Below are positions 46,382 to 53,110 of a DNA stretch of 64,000 nt, piece after piece. The DNA comes from Gammaproteobacteria bacterium. Lineage in GTDB: Bacteria > Pseudomonadota > Gammaproteobacteria > Steroidobacterales > Steroidobacteraceae. Position 1 is the stretch's first letter. Each line of letters begins with the position of its first letter. The stretch spans positions 186,001 to 250,000 of the forward strand of contig JANYFY010000009.1 of the NCBI GenBank assembly GCA_025359565.1, read 5' to 3'. The notes beneath the pieces are model-generated. The model saw nothing but the letters and a program-made list of their open reading frames with translations. It had not been told where the DNA came from and ran no database searches. Position numbers and translations under genes: made by a program.

Positions 46382-47692
46382 GTGTCACTAGATGCGATTC
46401 AGGAAGCGGATATTGTGGATCTTGCGCACGATGGGCGGGGTATCGCGCGTATTAATGGCAAGGCCGTGTTTGTTGCGGGCGCTTTGCCGGGTGAAAAGGT
46501 GCGCTTGCGAGTATTTAAACGTCGGCGCCAAATGGATGAGGCGGGCCTCGTTGATGTGTTGGTTGCCTCGCCAGACCGCGTCACACCGGTGTGTGCCCAT
46601 TTTGGGGTGTGCGGCGGTTGCTCGTTACAACATATGTCACCGGCGGCACAGCTCGCTGCTAAACAGCGGCAGCTTCTGGATAGCCTCGCACGTATCGGTC
46701 GAGTTAACCCAGAGACGGTACTTCCCGCCGTAAGTGGACCGCACTGGGCTTATCGTCGTCGTGCTCGTATTGGGGTGAAATACGTGCATAAAAAAGCCCG
46801 TGTACTTGCGGGATTTCGCGAGAGAGAAAAACCTTATATCGCGGACATACAGCGTTGTGAAATATTGAGTGCCCCCTTTGCGATGTTGCCGCAGGATTTG
46901 GCATGTCTGGTGGAAAATTTAAGTATCCGCGAAGAAATTCCGCAGGTGGAGGTTGCTCTTGGTGATCAGCACCACGCGTTGGTATTCCGGGTGATGGCGA
47001 CGCCCGATGCAGCGGACTTAGAGAAGCTGCAAGCATTCAGTGTAAAAGTCGGCGCGCAAATATTTTTGCAGAGCGCGGGTTTGGATAGTATTCGGCCTCT
47101 ACGTAATGATTATCCGCCTCTGTATTACCGTGTGGGGGCGATTTCTACGACTATCGAGTTCGGCCCAGTGGATTTTATTCAAATTAATCGTGAAATTAAT
47201 TTTGCATTGGTGGCTTCGGTAGAATCACTGTTGCAGCCTTCCCCCAAAGATGTGATTCTCGACCTATTTTGCGGGCTGGGAAATTTTACGCTACCACTGG
47301 CGCGCCGCGCGTCGCAGGCGGTGGGCGTGGAGGGTGATGCGGGATTGGTGCAGAAGGCTGGCATTAATGCTGCGCACAATGGGATTGGTAACGCGAGTTT
47401 CTATACGGATAATTTGTTTGAACCTGCAACCTGCGGGAATTGGGTCACCCAACGCTATGATTTGGTGCTTTTGGACCCGCCTCGGGCTGGTGCTATGGAA
47501 ATCTTGGGACATATGTCGCAGTGGCGTCCCCGTCGGGTCGTGTATATTTCTTGTCATCCCGGGAGTTTGGCACGAGATGCCGGGATCCTGGTTGAAACCC
47601 ATGGATTTAAGCTCTTAGGCGCAGGGGTAATGGATATGTTTCCGCATACGGCACATGTTGAGTCAATTGCGGTATTTGAGGCCAGAGCATGA
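46382..47692 (+). CDS. rlmD: 23S rRNA (uracil(1939)-C5)-methyltransferase RlmD
   Basis: RlmD methylates U1939 of 23S rRNA. The 436-residue protein has an N-terminal TRAM domain (DLAHDGRGIARINGKAVFV), a [4Fe-4S] cluster motif in CAHFGVCGGC plus a later Cys (IQRCEI), the SAM-binding ILDLFCGLGNFTLPLA, LVLLDPPRAGA, and the catalytic Cys in YISCHPGSLARD. Length equals E. coli RlmD (433). The start is GTG 46382; the longer frame upstream lies inside the exonuclease gene. It overlaps nagZ by four bases. Confidence 0.94.
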   Translation: MSLDAIQEADIVDLAHDGRGIARINGKAVFVAGALPGEKVRLRVFKRRRQMDEAGLVDVLVASPDRVTPVCAHFGVCGGCSLQHMSPAAQLAAKQRQLLDSLARIGRVNPETVLPAVSGPHWAYRRRARIGVKYVHKKARVLAGFREREKPYIADIQRCEILSAPFAMLPQDLACLVENLSIREEIPQVEVALGDQHHALVFRVMATPDAADLEKLQAFSVKVGAQIFLQSAGLDSIRPLRNDYPPLYYRVGAISTTIEFGPVDFIQINREINFALVASVESLLQPSPKDVILDLFCGLGNFTLPLARRASQAVGVEGDAGLVQKAGINAAHNGIGNASFYTDNLFEPATCGNWVTQRYDLVLLDPPRAGAMEILGHMSQWRPRRVVYISCHPGSLARDAGILVETHGFKLLGAGVMDMFPHTAHVESIAVFEARA

Positions 47693-48735
47693 GTTTAGGC
47701 CCGCTGATGATTGATATATCGGGTACTAGGCTAAATAATGAAGATAAAGAGGTGCTACGCCATCCATTGGTGGGTAGTGTCATATTGTTTACTCGCAATT
47801 ACCAAGACCTGGCCCAGCTTAGCGCGCTGGTGGCCGAGATTCGTGCGATACGAACTCCCGCTTTGTTAATCGCCGTTGACCACGAGGGTGGGCGAGTCCA
47901 ACGCTTTCGAGAGGGGTTTACCCGACTTCCGGCCGCGCGTCTGTTGGGACGACGAATTGGCAGCGAGCGGCGTGAGTCACTGCACATGGCGACGCTAGCG
48001 GGTTGGCTGATGGCCATTGAGCTACGACGGGTGGGCGTGGACTTTAGTTTTGCTCCCTGTGTAGATCTTGATTATGGGTCAAGCGAAGTTATTGGAGATC
48101 GGGCCTTGCATCGCGACCCCGAGGCAGTAGGGACTCTTGCGGTAGCTTACATGGGTGGCATGCGGGAAGCAGGCATGGCCGCTACTGCCAAGCATTTCCC
48201 CGGTCATGGAGCGGTGGTGGCGGACTCCCATGTCGCTTTGCCCGTTGACCGCCGAGCCTTCGCGGATTTAGAGGAGGACATGCGCCCTTATCGTTTGTTG
48301 ATTGATAACCAATTATCGGGCGTGCTGATATCGCATGTTGTATTCCCGCAGATTGATGCGCTACCTGCCAGCCTATCGCCCCGGTGGGTTAGCTCCATTT
48401 TAAGAAGTGACTTGAACTTCCACGGTTGCATATTTGCCGATGACTTAAGTATGGCCGGAGTAGCAAGCTATGGTGATGCACCAGCGCGTACACAATTAGC
48501 CCACGAGGCCGGTTGTGACGTGTTGCCGGTCTGTAACGATCGAAAATCAGTACACGCAGTTCTCGATAATTTTAAACCCGAAGTCAACCCTGCCTCGCAG
48601 GCGCGGTTGGTGAGAATGCGTGCACGCTCAGAGCCGCCATTGAATATTACAAGCAGTATTCAATGGCAAGAAGCAGTGCGGCAGCTCGAGAGTCTGTCGG
48701 CACCGCCGCCCTTGGAATTGCACGGTAGATCATGA
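47689..48735 (+). CDS. nagZ: Beta-N-acetylhexosaminidase NagZ
   Basis: NagZ removes GlcNAc from muropeptides in the cytosol during peptidoglycan recycling. The 348-residue GH3 enzyme shows VDHEGGRVQRF, the catalytic His region KHFPGHGAVVADSH, and the nucleophile Asp in FADDLSMAGV. Length is typical (E. coli 341). No signal peptide is seen, which fits a cytosolic enzyme. It is coupled by four-base overlaps to rlmD and to the PAS-GGDEF gene. Confidence 0.95.
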   Translation: MSLGPLMIDISGTRLNNEDKEVLRHPLVGSVILFTRNYQDLAQLSALVAEIRAIRTPALLIAVDHEGGRVQRFREGFTRLPAARLLGRRIGSERRESLHMATLAGWLMAIELRRVGVDFSFAPCVDLDYGSSEVIGDRALHRDPEAVGTLAVAYMGGMREAGMAATAKHFPGHGAVVADSHVALPVDRRAFADLEEDMRPYRLLIDNQLSGVLISHVVFPQIDALPASLSPRWVSSILRSDLNFHGCIFADDLSMAGVASYGDAPARTQLAHEAGCDVLPVCNDRKSVHAVLDNFKPEVNPASQARLVRMRARSEPPLNITSSIQWQEAVRQLESLSAPPPLELHGRS

Positions 48736-49664
48736 GCGTAGTAGATCTGGATCTGTATCGGCGCTTGGTTGACGCATCGTCGGATGGTGTGGCACTAGTT
48801 GATGCGCTGCATCCGGAGCGCCCCGTGGTTTATGTCAATCCCGCGTTTGAAAAACTAACGGGCTATCCAGCGAGCGAATTGATCGGACGAAACTTGCGAT
48901 TTTTACAAGCCGACGATGTTGAGCAGGATGCTAAGACCAGGCTGCGTGAGGCATTGAAAATTAATGAGCCGTGTCGGGTGTTGCTACGCAATTATCGTAA
49001 AGACGGATCGCTTTTTTGGAACGAATTAAGTGTCTCGCCGCTGCTCGATGCTACGGGCAAGGTGAGTCATTTTGTCGGACATCATCGTGATGCTGGCGAG
49101 CGCTTAAAATCGGATCCACGACATGCGCGAGACTCGTTAAGTGGCGCTCACCAACCGACTACAATTGCTGTTCGTGATGACCGTCTGACGGGTCTATTTA
49201 CCCTACCGTATCTCGAAGAATTATTAAAACGAGATTGGGCTATCGCGCAACGCGAACAACGTAGCATCGCAATTTTTAGTGTCGATATTGATGCGCTAGA
49301 TTTATACAATAGTACTTTTGGTCGAGCTGCGGGTGATTCCACGATTCGTCGGGTGTCTCACTGTGTTTCCGGGTGTCTACGTCGAGCCACTGATGTCACT
49401 GCACGTATTGATGGTGGAAGCCTCATGGCCTTCGCGCCCGGAATAGATTCCCAAAAAGCTTTAGGGCTGGGTAATTTAATGGCTGATCGTGTGCGTGAAA
49501 TGCGAATTCATCATCCAAAATCGATTGTTCTCAGGTATATCAGTGTGAGCGTGGGCGTTTCGGCTATGATTCCTGGCACTGATCACAGTCCGGCTTTGCT
49601 ACTCGAGAAGGCGCAGCAACAGCTCCAAAAAGCCAAGAAATCGGGACGAAATCAGGCTGCTTGA
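48732..49664 (+). CDS. LOV-like PAS plus degenerate GGDEF protein
   Basis: The 310-residue protein has an N-terminal PAS domain (about 5-120) very like LOV photosensors: GRNLRFLQ, NYRKDGSLFWNEL and FVGHHRD. The photoactive Cys of the GxNCRFLQ motif is Leu55, and the signalling Gln near FVG is His, so normal flavin photochemistry is unlikely. The C-terminal domain (about 150-305) follows the GGDEF fold (FSVDIDALDLYN), but the active-site motif reads DGGSL after AR, so cyclase activity is probably lost. No membrane segment is seen. It may be a protein-binding or c-di-GMP-related regulator. It overlaps nagZ by four bases. Confidence 0.85.
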   Translation: MSVVDLDLYRRLVDASSDGVALVDALHPERPVVYVNPAFEKLTGYPASELIGRNLRFLQADDVEQDAKTRLREALKINEPCRVLLRNYRKDGSLFWNELSVSPLLDATGKVSHFVGHHRDAGERLKSDPRHARDSLSGAHQPTTIAVRDDRLTGLFTLPYLEELLKRDWAIAQREQRSIAIFSVDIDALDLYNSTFGRAAGDSTIRRVSHCVSGCLRRATDVTARIDGGSLMAFAPGIDSQKALGLGNLMADRVREMRIHHPKSIVLRYISVSVGVSAMIPGTDHSPALLLEKAQQQLQKAKKSGRNQAA

Positions 49665-49666
49665 TT

Positions 49667-52600
49667 TTAGGCTAATTGCTCTATTAGCTGTTCGACGCGA
49701 GCGAATAATTTCTCGTCCACCCGGGCATCATGCGTGAACCGCAATTTGAGTGGACCTTCTAGGCGGTATTCTTTAGGCCGCGTTTGGATCAATGCGAGTA
49801 AGTGCTTCGCGTTGATTTTATTGTCTTCTGCAAATACGAAGTAACCGCTATTGGTACCTGCGTCGATTTTGCGAATCCCTAATTCCTGAGCGCGCAATTT
49901 TATTTGTCGTGTACGAAATAGCGACTTTGCGGGGTCGGTGAAGGGCCCAAAACGGTCTACCAATTCAACTTTGAGGTCGTCGAGTTCCTCGCGAGATTCA
50001 ACGCCAGCTATGCGTTTGTAGAGGACTAATCGCAAATGTACGTCAGGAACATAGTCGGCTGGAATCAGTGCCGGCAAATGCAATTCAACCTCGGGGCCGG
50101 CATCAATCGGTCTGTCTAGATCGGCTTGCTTGCCAGATTTTAAGGCAGTGACGGCGCGTTCGAGCAGTTCCATGTAGAGGTTATAGCCGATTTCGTTGAT
50201 TTGACCGCTTTGTTCGTCGCCGAGTAATTCCCCGGCGCCACGTATTTCAAGATCATGGGTGGCCAGCGTAAACCCCGCACCTAGTTCTTCTAACGATTCT
50301 AAAGCCTCTAAGCGCTTGACCGCATCGGCGGTCATGGCCTTGTGGGGTGGAGTGATTAGGTAAGCGTAGGCACGATGATGCGATCTGCCGACGCGTCCGC
50401 GCAGCTGATGTATTTGGGCTAGACCAAAACGATCAGCGCGATCAATAATAATGGTATTCGCCGTGGGCACATCAATGCCACTCTCGATAATAGTTGTGCA
50501 TACCAAAACATTGAAGCGACGATGATAAAAATCAAGCATAAGTTGCTCTAATTCTCGCTCGCGCATTTGGCCGTGTCCCACCGCCACGTTCGCCTCAGGA
50601 ACTAATTCACGAATTGCCTGGGCGGTTTTCTCAATAGTCTCGATCGCATTGTGCACGTAATAAATTTGCCCTCCGCGGCGAATTTCCCGTAACGCTGCCT
50701 CCCTGACAATAGTTTCATTCCATTCAAGTACAAAGGTTTTAACGGCTAGTCGTTCAGCGGGCGGTGTGGTAATGAGCGATAAATCGCGTAGACCGCCCAT
50801 TGCCATATTTAAAGTACGCGGAATCGGCGTTGCGGTTAGTGTCAAGACATCAACCTCGGTACGCAATGCTTTCAGCTTTTCCTTATCGCGCACTCCAAAA
50901 CGATGCTCTTCGTCAATAATTACTAATCCAAGGTCCTTAAACTTAACCTTGCCTTGCAGTAGGCGTTGGGTGGCAATGACGATATCGACCACGCCAGCGG
51001 CGACGCCAGCGAGGATGCCTGTCGCTTCTTTGTTCGAACGGAATCGTGAAAGACTCTCGACACGTACCGGCCAGTCGGCGAATCGGTCGGTGAATGTAGT
51101 GTGATGTTGCTGAGCAAGCAGGGTTGTGGGCACTAAAACGGCGACTTGTTTGCCGGCCTGCACCGCGACAAACGCTGCGCGCAGGGCAACTTCGGTTTTA
51201 CCAAATCCCACGTCGCCGCAAATAACCCGGTCCATAGGTTTGTCTGAATTCAGATCAGCGAGGACTTGTTCGATGGCAGTTGCTTGGTCGGCAGTTTCTT
51301 CAAACGGAAACCCGGCTTGGAAGGCGCGATACTCAGCTTCTCCTGCATTAAGTTTAGTGCCGTGGCGGGCTGCGCGGCGTGAATATAGATCTAGTAATTC
51401 GGCGGCGACGTCGCGGATGCGCTGTGCCGCTTTACGGCGTATTTTTTGCCATTGCTCTCCGCCCAGTTTGTGCAGGGGAGCGGTTTCAGCCGGCGCGCCG
51501 GTGTAGCGTGATACGAGGTGTAGCGCTTGAACCGGAACATAAAGTTTGTCGCCATCCGCGTATTCAAGCACTAGGAATTCGCCAGTGTACCCAGCTACGT
51601 CCATGGTCTGTAGGCCGATATACCGCCCGACACCGTAGGCTTCATGGACTACCGGGGCACCTATGCGCAGATCGGTCAGTTCTTTTAAAATCTTGGCGGG
51701 ATCGCGATCGGCGCGGCGACGTCTACGTTCCTGACGAGCTCGATCCCCGAAAAGTTGCGATTCGGTCAATATTTCGAGTGCGGGAGAACTTAAGCGCAGG
51801 CTTGAGACTGCAGCGGAGACGGTAATACCCAATTTCAAATTGCTGTTTAGAAAAGCCGCAAAAGTATCGAAAATCTTGACGTGAACGTCACACTTTCGCA
51901 AAAGTTCTAGTAATAGCTCACGCCGTCCGGCTGATTCGGCGGCAATCAATACTCGGGCACAGGATGCATCTAGGTAGGCAATTAATTCCGTCGCTGGAGA
52001 TGCGGCGCGCGCATCGATACGCACTTTAGAGGGCGCGCTACTTGTGAAATTTTGGATTATTCCCGGGGTCTCTGGTGGCCATTCATGTGCCTGTAATTGA
52101 ATTTTCGGCCACGCGGAGCATTGCGCGCCAAACTCAAGCGGCGATAAGTACAGTTCGGCCGGATCTAAAATCGGTCGTTGTCGATCATGTCGAAGTTGCT
52201 CGTGGCGCGAATTAATTCCATTCCAAAGAGTCTCGATCGTCTGGGTTGCACCAAACATCTCTAGCAATAGGCTGTTAGGCGGCAAATATTCAAATAAATG
52301 CGAGGTTCGCTCAAAAAATAACGGCAGAAAGTACTCAATGCCTCCGGGGCTTAAGCCTTGGGTGACATCACGGTAGATAAATTGTTCCGATAAGTCACCG
52401 CTGAAACGCAGCCGGTAGCGACGGCGGAATTCTCGTATAGAATCTGGATTTAACGGTGTTTCGCGTGCTGGTAATAATTCAATACGGTCAATTTTGTCGC
52501 CCGACCGTTGCGTATCTATGTCGAAAAAGCGAATGCTATCGATATCGCGGTCCAGCAGGTCAATTCTATAGGGGCGCTCCGAACCCATGGGAAAGACGTC

Positions 52601-53110
52601 AATGAGTGAGCCGCGAACGGCAAATTCACCGTGCGCCACGACCTGAGTAACTGCCGCATACCCAGCTACCACTAATTGGCTTTTGAGTACTTCTAAGTCC
52701 AACGATTCACCGACATACACATTAAGGGAATAGGCTTCGACATAGCTGCGCGGTACCAGGCGTTGCATCAGAGTATCGATAGCGATTAGCCAGACGCCGT
52801 GTCTTGCCCGAGGTAACTCAGCGAGAGTCGCCAATCGTGTTGAGATAATATCGGGGTGTGCCGAAAAATTATCGTAGGGTAGTGTTTCAAGGTCGGGAAA
52901 CACTCTAACGGTCAGCGAGGTCGGCGCAAAAAAACTAATTTCATCGCTTAAGGATTCGGCCTGGCGGGTATTTTCCGCGATAACAATCAGCGGACCTGGG
53001 GCGCCTACTGCGGCTTCTGCGATGGCTAGTGATGCTGCCGCACCATAAGCTTTTCCCCATTTGACGCTGCGATCGTTAGCATTGGGTAGGGTAGGGTTTA
53101 GTAGCGGCAT
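49667..53110 (-). CDS. mfd: Transcription-repair coupling factor Mfd
   Basis: Mfd pushes stalled RNA polymerase off damaged DNA and recruits UvrA. The 1147-residue protein (E. coli 1148) has an N-terminal UvrB-like region, the RNA-polymerase-interacting domain (GAPVVHEAYGVGRYIGL), a RecG-like translocase with Walker A GDVGFGKTEVALRAAF (about 630) and the DEEH box, the QLRGRVGRS motif VI, and the C-terminal TRCF domain. It is on the minus strand and ends two bases from the convergent PAS-GGDEF gene. A terminator upstream separates it from the small exported protein gene. Confidence 0.97.
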   Translation of the reverse strand: MPLLNPTLPNANDRSVKWGKAYGAAASLAIAEAAVGAPGPLIVIAENTRQAESLSDEISFFAPTSLTVRVFPDLETLPYDNFSAHPDIISTRLATLAELPRARHGVWLIAIDTLMQRLVPRSYVEAYSLNVYVGESLDLEVLKSQLVVAGYAAVTQVVAHGEFAVRGSLIDVFPMGSERPYRIDLLDRDIDSIRFFDIDTQRSGDKIDRIELLPARETPLNPDSIREFRRRYRLRFSGDLSEQFIYRDVTQGLSPGGIEYFLPLFFERTSHLFEYLPPNSLLLEMFGATQTIETLWNGINSRHEQLRHDRQRPILDPAELYLSPLEFGAQCSAWPKIQLQAHEWPPETPGIIQNFTSSAPSKVRIDARAASPATELIAYLDASCARVLIAAESAGRRELLLELLRKCDVHVKIFDTFAAFLNSNLKLGITVSAAVSSLRLSSPALEILTESQLFGDRARQERRRRRADRDPAKILKELTDLRIGAPVVHEAYGVGRYIGLQTMDVAGYTGEFLVLEYADGDKLYVPVQALHLVSRYTGAPAETAPLHKLGGEQWQKIRRKAAQRIRDVAAELLDLYSRRAARHGTKLNAGEAEYRAFQAGFPFEETADQATAIEQVLADLNSDKPMDRVICGDVGFGKTEVALRAAFVAVQAGKQVAVLVPTTLLAQQHHTTFTDRFADWPVRVESLSRFRSNKEATGILAGVAAGVVDIVIATQRLLQGKVKFKDLGLVIIDEEHRFGVRDKEKLKALRTEVDVLTLTATPIPRTLNMAMGGLRDLSLITTPPAERLAVKTFVLEWNETIVREAALREIRRGGQIYYVHNAIETIEKTAQAIRELVPEANVAVGHGQMRERELEQLMLDFYHRRFNVLVCTTIIESGIDVPTANTIIIDRADRFGLAQIHQLRGRVGRSHHRAYAYLITPPHKAMTADAVKRLEALESLEELGAGFTLATHDLEIRGAGELLGDEQSGQINEIGYNLYMELLERAVTALKSGKQADLDRPIDAGPEVELHLPALIPADYVPDVHLRLVLYKRIAGVESREELDDLKVELVDRFGPFTDPAKSLFRTRQIKLRAQELGIRKIDAGTNSGYFVFAEDNKINAKHLLALIQTRPKEYRLEGPLKLRFTHDARVDEKLFARVEQLIEQLA

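Follow-up and report, generated by a model that had tools for sequence, protein, structure and literature searches.

A probably blind relative of LOV-activated diguanylate cyclases keeps its I-site and is a candidate c-di-GMP receptor in the Steroidobacteraceae

What a protein is retained for when the residues expected for light sensing and for catalysis have both been replaced is the question raised by a LOV-GGDEF protein encoded in the 64,000-nucleotide stretch of DNA analyzed here (the window; Table 1). Residues 150–308 of this protein matched PF00990 with 98 bits (Pfam), and the nearest solved structure was the LOV-activated cyclase MsLadC (8c05), which aligned over residues 7–309 (E = 1e-59). 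The same structure was the top Foldseek match of an AlphaFold2 model of the full protein. The model had a mean pLDDT of 90.2 and a pTM of 0.55, with a disordered linker at residues 127–145; thus, the relative placing of the PAS and GGDEF domains is unreliable. The LOV fold was recovered by Foldseek and VIA-align, and the GGDEF domain superimposed on WspR (3bre) with a Z score of 27.8 and an rmsd of 1.2 over 164 residues (VIA-align). Scans for tRNA and Rfam matches across the whole window yielded none.

Table 1. Features of the LOV-GGDEF locus, in window coordinates
Feature	Position	Strand	Basis
nagZ	47689..48735	+	Glyco_hydro_3; 4 bp overlap with the LOV-GGDEF gene
Gene for LOV-like PAS and degenerate GGDEF domains	48732..49664	+	ORF, 310 aa, ATG start
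LOV-like PAS domain, residues 7–125	48750..49106	+	Pfam PAS; short-LOV and 8c05 matches
Leu55 replacing the adduct-forming Cys (GRNLRFLQ)	48894..48896	+	Alignment to 8c05
His118 replacing the signalling Gln	49083..49085	+	Alignment to 8c05
GGDEF domain, residues 148–308	49173..49655	+	PF00990; VIA-align to WspR 3bre
R174 (WspR R198), second I-site arginine	49251..49253	+	Gapless alignment to 3bre
R218xxD221, I-site RxxD (WspR R242/D245; MsLadC 218-RGSD-221)	49383..49394	+	Alignments to 8c05 and 3bre
DGGSL replacing GG[D/E]EF (active site lost)	49410..49424	+	Alignment to 8c05 (GGEEF there); homologue alignment
HHPKS loop, family signature HHPR[S/A]	49509..49523	+	Order-wide P262 72/72, H260 69/72
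mfd, convergent neighbour	49667..53110	-	ORF; name presumed from product
PMC numbers in the text refer to excerpts of the publications concerned.

A first-pass annotation of this DNA had proposed that the photoactive Cys is Leu55, the signalling Gln is His and the GGDEF motif reads DGGSL, all within a PAS domain that keeps the LOV-typical strings GRN-x-RFLQ and NYRKDGSLFWN. Alignment to 8c05 bore this out: GKNCRFLQ in MsLadC corresponds to GRNLRFLQ, YLGIQKD corresponds to FVGHHRD, and NYRKDGSLFWN is present. The LOV residues G52, N54, R56, F57, L58, Q59, N87, and N97 are all kept. In the GGDEF domain, D185, N193, D202, K302, and R306 are present, and the position of the Lys that follows DxDxF is occupied by D190; we take these six to be metal, base and phosphate positions. 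With its motif gone, the protein reads as catalytically dead as a cyclase. On the input side, changing the Gln to His or Tyr abolished light signalling in the LOV protein YF1, and the change to His did so in NmPAL (excerpts of PMC9098866). Because of these precedents, we expect the LOV domain of the window protein to be silent. Flavin binding may persist in its near relatives, since most pocket residues are present. Taken at the level of its residues, the protein is probably a blind LOV cyclase.

The losses are not peculiar to the window. In a first search of 60 relatives and the source genome, which gave 30 aligned rows including the window, both the Cys and GG[D/E]EF were absent (0/30 each). 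A near family of 81 rows was then defined as the window plus 80 loci from a pattern scan of genome contigs; the patterns included NLR[LFM]LQ and HHPR, so conservation there is partly selected, and the I-site was in no pattern. Three partial members (L057, L082, and L112) were kept among the 81 rows and dropped from alignment A2. The loci include Steroidobacter agaridevorans, Peristeroidobacter soli, P. agariperforans, and Povalibacter uvarum, and on this basis we assign the near family to the Steroidobacteraceae. Column 55 holds Leu in 77 rows, Met in two and Phe in one, so that Cys occurs in 0 of the 80 readable rows, one row not covering the position; the Gln column holds His in 65, Tyr in seven, Gln in one, and other residues in eight. 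GG[D/E]EF occurs in 0/81 rows. Recurrence of the same losses in homologues makes them more than chance, and the orthologue check suggested by the first-pass annotation gave no indication of a single decaying copy.

To cover the order of the source genome, we used a profile search, which matched 100 of 147 genomes at E = 1e-48 or better; this number is an upper bound, as some matches are other PAS-GGDEF proteins, and the profile itself contains RxxD. The order-wide set comprised 72 rows including the window, drawn from 60 profile-matched loci and 15 stretches from earlier matches. Two loci were dropped from the family: L128 (G043), a PAS-GGDEF protein with NAGD in place of RxxD and neither nagZ nor mfd found near it, and L131, a receiver-GGDEF protein with an intact GGEEF. 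Two intact LOV cyclases, L157 and L167, were removed before counting. GG[D/E]EF was again absent (0/72), and the Cys was retained in a single row, L119. Mean conservation across the ten LOV columns was 0.86 in the near family and 0.35 order-wide; for ten active-site columns, it was 0.40 order-wide, and for all columns, 0.44. The nearest approach to the catalytic motif, DGDEF in L125 (G039:C310:7265-8143), has only the first Gly altered, yet this protein carries Arg at the first metal Asp. In other order-wide rows, among them L118, L120, L122, and L126, the LOV signature is gone from the PAS domain and the I-site and an HHPR-like loop are kept. Some order-wide rows end without the last GGDEF helix.

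The I-site, which the first-pass annotation did not mention, is intact as R218xxD221 and points to c-di-GMP binding. R174, R218, and D221 align without gaps to the WspR triad and are each present in 81/81 near-family rows. Order-wide, R218 and D221 are found in 72/72 rows and Arg at position 174 in 65/72, the other seven being non-Arg; including the left-out L128 would lower R218 to 72/73. Mean order-wide conservation of the I-site was 0.97. Nine of the 310 columns are invariant in the near family, the triad among them (hypergeometric P = 1.7e-5), and two of the three I-site residues are among the six columns invariant order-wide (D150, G154, Y192, R218, D221, and P262; P = 9e-4), both values overstating independence because the rows share descent. 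The xx positions vary in the 81 rows while R and D stay fixed, and the I-site codons show synonymous variation. A control set combined active relatives with cyclases of the source genome; of its 22 members, 21 had RxxD and 13 the R174 equivalent. Judged from these alignments, RxxD is ancestral, and what is unusual is its persistence past the loss of catalysis. The HHPR[S/A] loop is nearly invariant as well and may be a partner surface.

What these residues do is documented for WspR, in which c-di-GMP is bound by R242 of the core R242xxD245 and, from a neighbouring domain, by R198 (De et al. 2008; excerpts of PMC2270323). A WspR mutant in either arginine purifies essentially nucleotide-free, and a dead GGAAF variant still bound added c-di-GMP, the latter being unpublished data within the same paper. 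The I-site of MsLadC carries the same numbering as that of the window protein (PMC12805367).

The order of the losses was evaluated using a maximum-likelihood tree, built from 111 rows with a quick method, in which a single branch separates 89 family rows from 22 active rows with an SH-aLRT of 100, the only support computed, and with the trait columns included. The intact LOV cyclases L134, L157, and L167, which have NCRFLQ together with GGEEF or GGDEF, lie on the active side near the split. L119 (G038:C62:9639-10463), in which NCRFLQ with its Cys is present and the GGDEF motif is absent, is nested within the family beside Cys-less rows. Read most simply, this quick tree suggests a single loss of the catalytic motif, followed by two or more losses of the Cys. 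Because the Cys survives in this one divergent member, the failure of the output probably preceded that of the photosensor. L119 may represent an intermediate, one that perhaps still senses light although its cyclase is dead.

Three successive genes of the window, namely an rlmD-like gene, nagZ and the LOV-GGDEF gene, overlap by 4 bp at each junction, and mfd is convergent; the names rlmD and mfd are ones we presume from the products. The coupling to nagZ proposed in the first-pass annotation proved tight in the Steroidobacteraceae and looser elsewhere in the order. Of the 80 near-family loci, found without using neighbours, 75 have a co-oriented nagZ upstream, 73 of them within 100 bp; four of the remaining five have no room for nagZ and one is without it. 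A convergent downstream mfd match was found at 51 of the 80, the others being too short or without a match. Among 58 order-wide loci, nagZ is on the same contig in 51 and within 1.7 kb in 50, at distances of ≤31 bp (4 loci), 100–300 bp (8), 700–850 bp (11), and 1300–1610 bp (27). In L121, a phosphoribosyltransferase and a phosphorylase gene intervene between nagZ and the LOV-GGDEF gene. The same locus has a CsiV-like (peptidoglycan-binding) gene between the LOV-GGDEF gene and mfd (L121:3227-3967, + strand), so that cell-wall genes flank both sides in that one relative. Across 232 genomes of the class, compared by eye, nagZ and profile places occurred together only in G000, G042, and G036 among the matches listed, all three belonging to the order of the window genome. 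Thus, the location near nagZ is old, and it is mainly in the Steroidobacteraceae that the two genes are directly paired. Among the papers available for searching, none joins nagZ, GGDEF and mfd.

The source genome has 16 GGDEF matches, the window protein included. By comparison of the listings by eye, all 100 profile-matching genomes hold at least six GGDEF matches, whereas the gene is absent from all 26 genomes (of 147) in which no GGDEF domain was matched. This co-occurrence is weak support, as it partly reflects shared lineage: the GGDEF-free genomes cluster in a few lineages. These members of the order, with no GGDEF match at E = 1e-10 and including G033, G041, G047, and G048, are apparently without c-di-GMP synthesis.

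The explanation toward which we lean, with somewhat better than even confidence, is that the window protein derives from a LOV-activated diguanylate cyclase and would now act as a c-di-GMP receptor or scaffold. The I-site stays fixed while LOV and catalytic residues drift, which argues for a receptor rather than a dying gene. In this mechanism, c-di-GMP from the other cyclases of the cell would bind the I-site and would probably do so in the form of an intercalated dimer bridging two GGDEF domains. Bridging would alter the dimer/tetramer state or uncover a contact site for a partner, possibly the HHPR loop, and the LOV domain would serve as a dimerisation module, no longer as a light switch.

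A rather unlikely alternative, and one with precedent in MsLadC, is that the I-site is retained for docking, either between proteins or between the PAS and GGDEF domains, and that the protein acts structurally, as a partner to another enzyme, a role also raised in the first-pass annotation. In the dark state, 218-RGSD-221 of MsLadC packs on the LOV core, where its role may be structural, and the GMGG and RAGG variants relieve inhibition (PMC10396304, PMC12805367). I-sites can also serve protein contacts (PMC12805367), and a paper cited in that publication reports a cyclase I-site to be needed for effector interaction. However, the LOV-side contact positions of MsLadC, which map to residues 46, 66, and 79, are poorly kept (mean conservation 0.46 across the near family, 0.27 order-wide), the xx positions vary where R and D do not, and the second ligand arginine, R174, is kept as well. 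We consider it quite improbable that the protein senses flavin redox state or, weakly, light, with the Cys-less LOV domain signalling via the flavin semiquinone to the dead GGDEF domain. Such signalling by Cys-less LOV proteins is on record, and the window protein keeps eight of the nine other LOV residues listed in that source, all but Gln (excerpts of PMC4682037), in keeping with the high near-family conservation of the LOV columns. Nevertheless, the substitution of that Gln is the one that blocked signalling in YF1 and NmPAL (PMC9098866), and in most of the order's other families LOV and flavin-pocket residues are gone and the I-site is kept; the flavin or redox sensing suggested by the first-pass annotation is weakened to that extent.

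The remnant active site could alternatively bind GTP as a sensor, and the near family does keep the metal Asp D185 in 75/81 rows, N193 in 64/81, D202 in 76/81, and K302 in 72/81. Order-wide, however, conservation at these positions drops to 0.21, 0.33, 0.71, and 0.13, respectively (72 rows), which leaves this possibility very improbable. As for a decaying or neutral gene, no recognizable copy was found in 20 fetched stretches downstream of nagZ. Nineteen of these came from genomes without a profile match, so the gene is dispensable in some lineages; in the other, G049 (445 bases), the copy sits on another contig. Against decay, reading frames are open across the 81 rows, the I-site is invariant, and dN/dS was 0.046–0.265 in 10 close pairs of relatives, nine of them at or below 0.125. 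The estimate rests on pairs among relatives, as dS between the window and nine relatives was saturated. These close pairs are under purifying selection. With the losses common to homologues, we rejected decay, which we regard as scarcely credible; the retained non-catalytic role envisaged in the first-pass annotation is supported.

A larger scenario, doubtful at present, would be a single conversion of a light-activated c-di-GMP synthase into an order-wide receptor family, with output lost first, photochemistry lost later in separate lineages, and the product-feedback pocket kept as the input; in the Steroidobacteraceae, the family would be tied to cell-wall recycling via its coupling to nagZ. 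If true, a feedback-inhibition site can persist after its enzyme has lost activity and take on the role of a receptor, in a transition traceable across one order where intact cousins survive. For such genes, domain matches alone may mislead into photoreceptor or cyclase labels.

Among the papers available for searching, we found no description of such a receptor derived from a LOV-activated cyclase. The available text of a review of Xanthomonas c-di-GMP proteins (PMC6637768) describes no such protein there, and the sources retrieved contained nothing relevant on Steroidobacter with c-di-GMP. Among known systems, MsLadC shares the domain order, alignment over its full length, and RxxD at 218–221. 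LadC homologues are defined by Cys and GG[D/E]EF (PMC10396304), and MsLadC also has the Gln, whereas the window protein is without all three. BAT-LOV likewise has a LOV-like domain without Cys and responds to flavin reduction (PMC4682037); in the window protein, the Gln is additionally changed to His. WspR shares the GGDEF fold and I-site triad but is catalytically active and carries a receiver domain. Further parallels are proteins with a degenerate GGDEF domain. SgmT of Myxococcus xanthus has a dead GGDEF domain with an intact I-site through which it binds c-di-GMP, in an architecture of GAF, kinase, receiver, and GGDEF domains (PMC3509222), whereas the input of the window protein is LOV-like. 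PopA of Caulobacter, mentioned in the same source, combines the same two features in a response regulator. CdgA of Bdellovibrio has a degenerate motif (GVNEF), keeps RxxD, shows no cyclase activity, and binds c-di-GMP with a Kd of about 2 μM; it is a polar protein of a predator for which the excerpts of PMC3271064 mention no LOV origin, in contrast to the LOV-derived window protein. As in degenerate-GGDEF receptors, the window protein has a dead site, an intact RxxD and the second I-site arginine R174, its c-di-GMP binding being putative. Thus, c-di-GMP receptors that combine catalytic inactivity with an intact I-site are already known, and one derived from a LOV cyclase would be a new variant of them.
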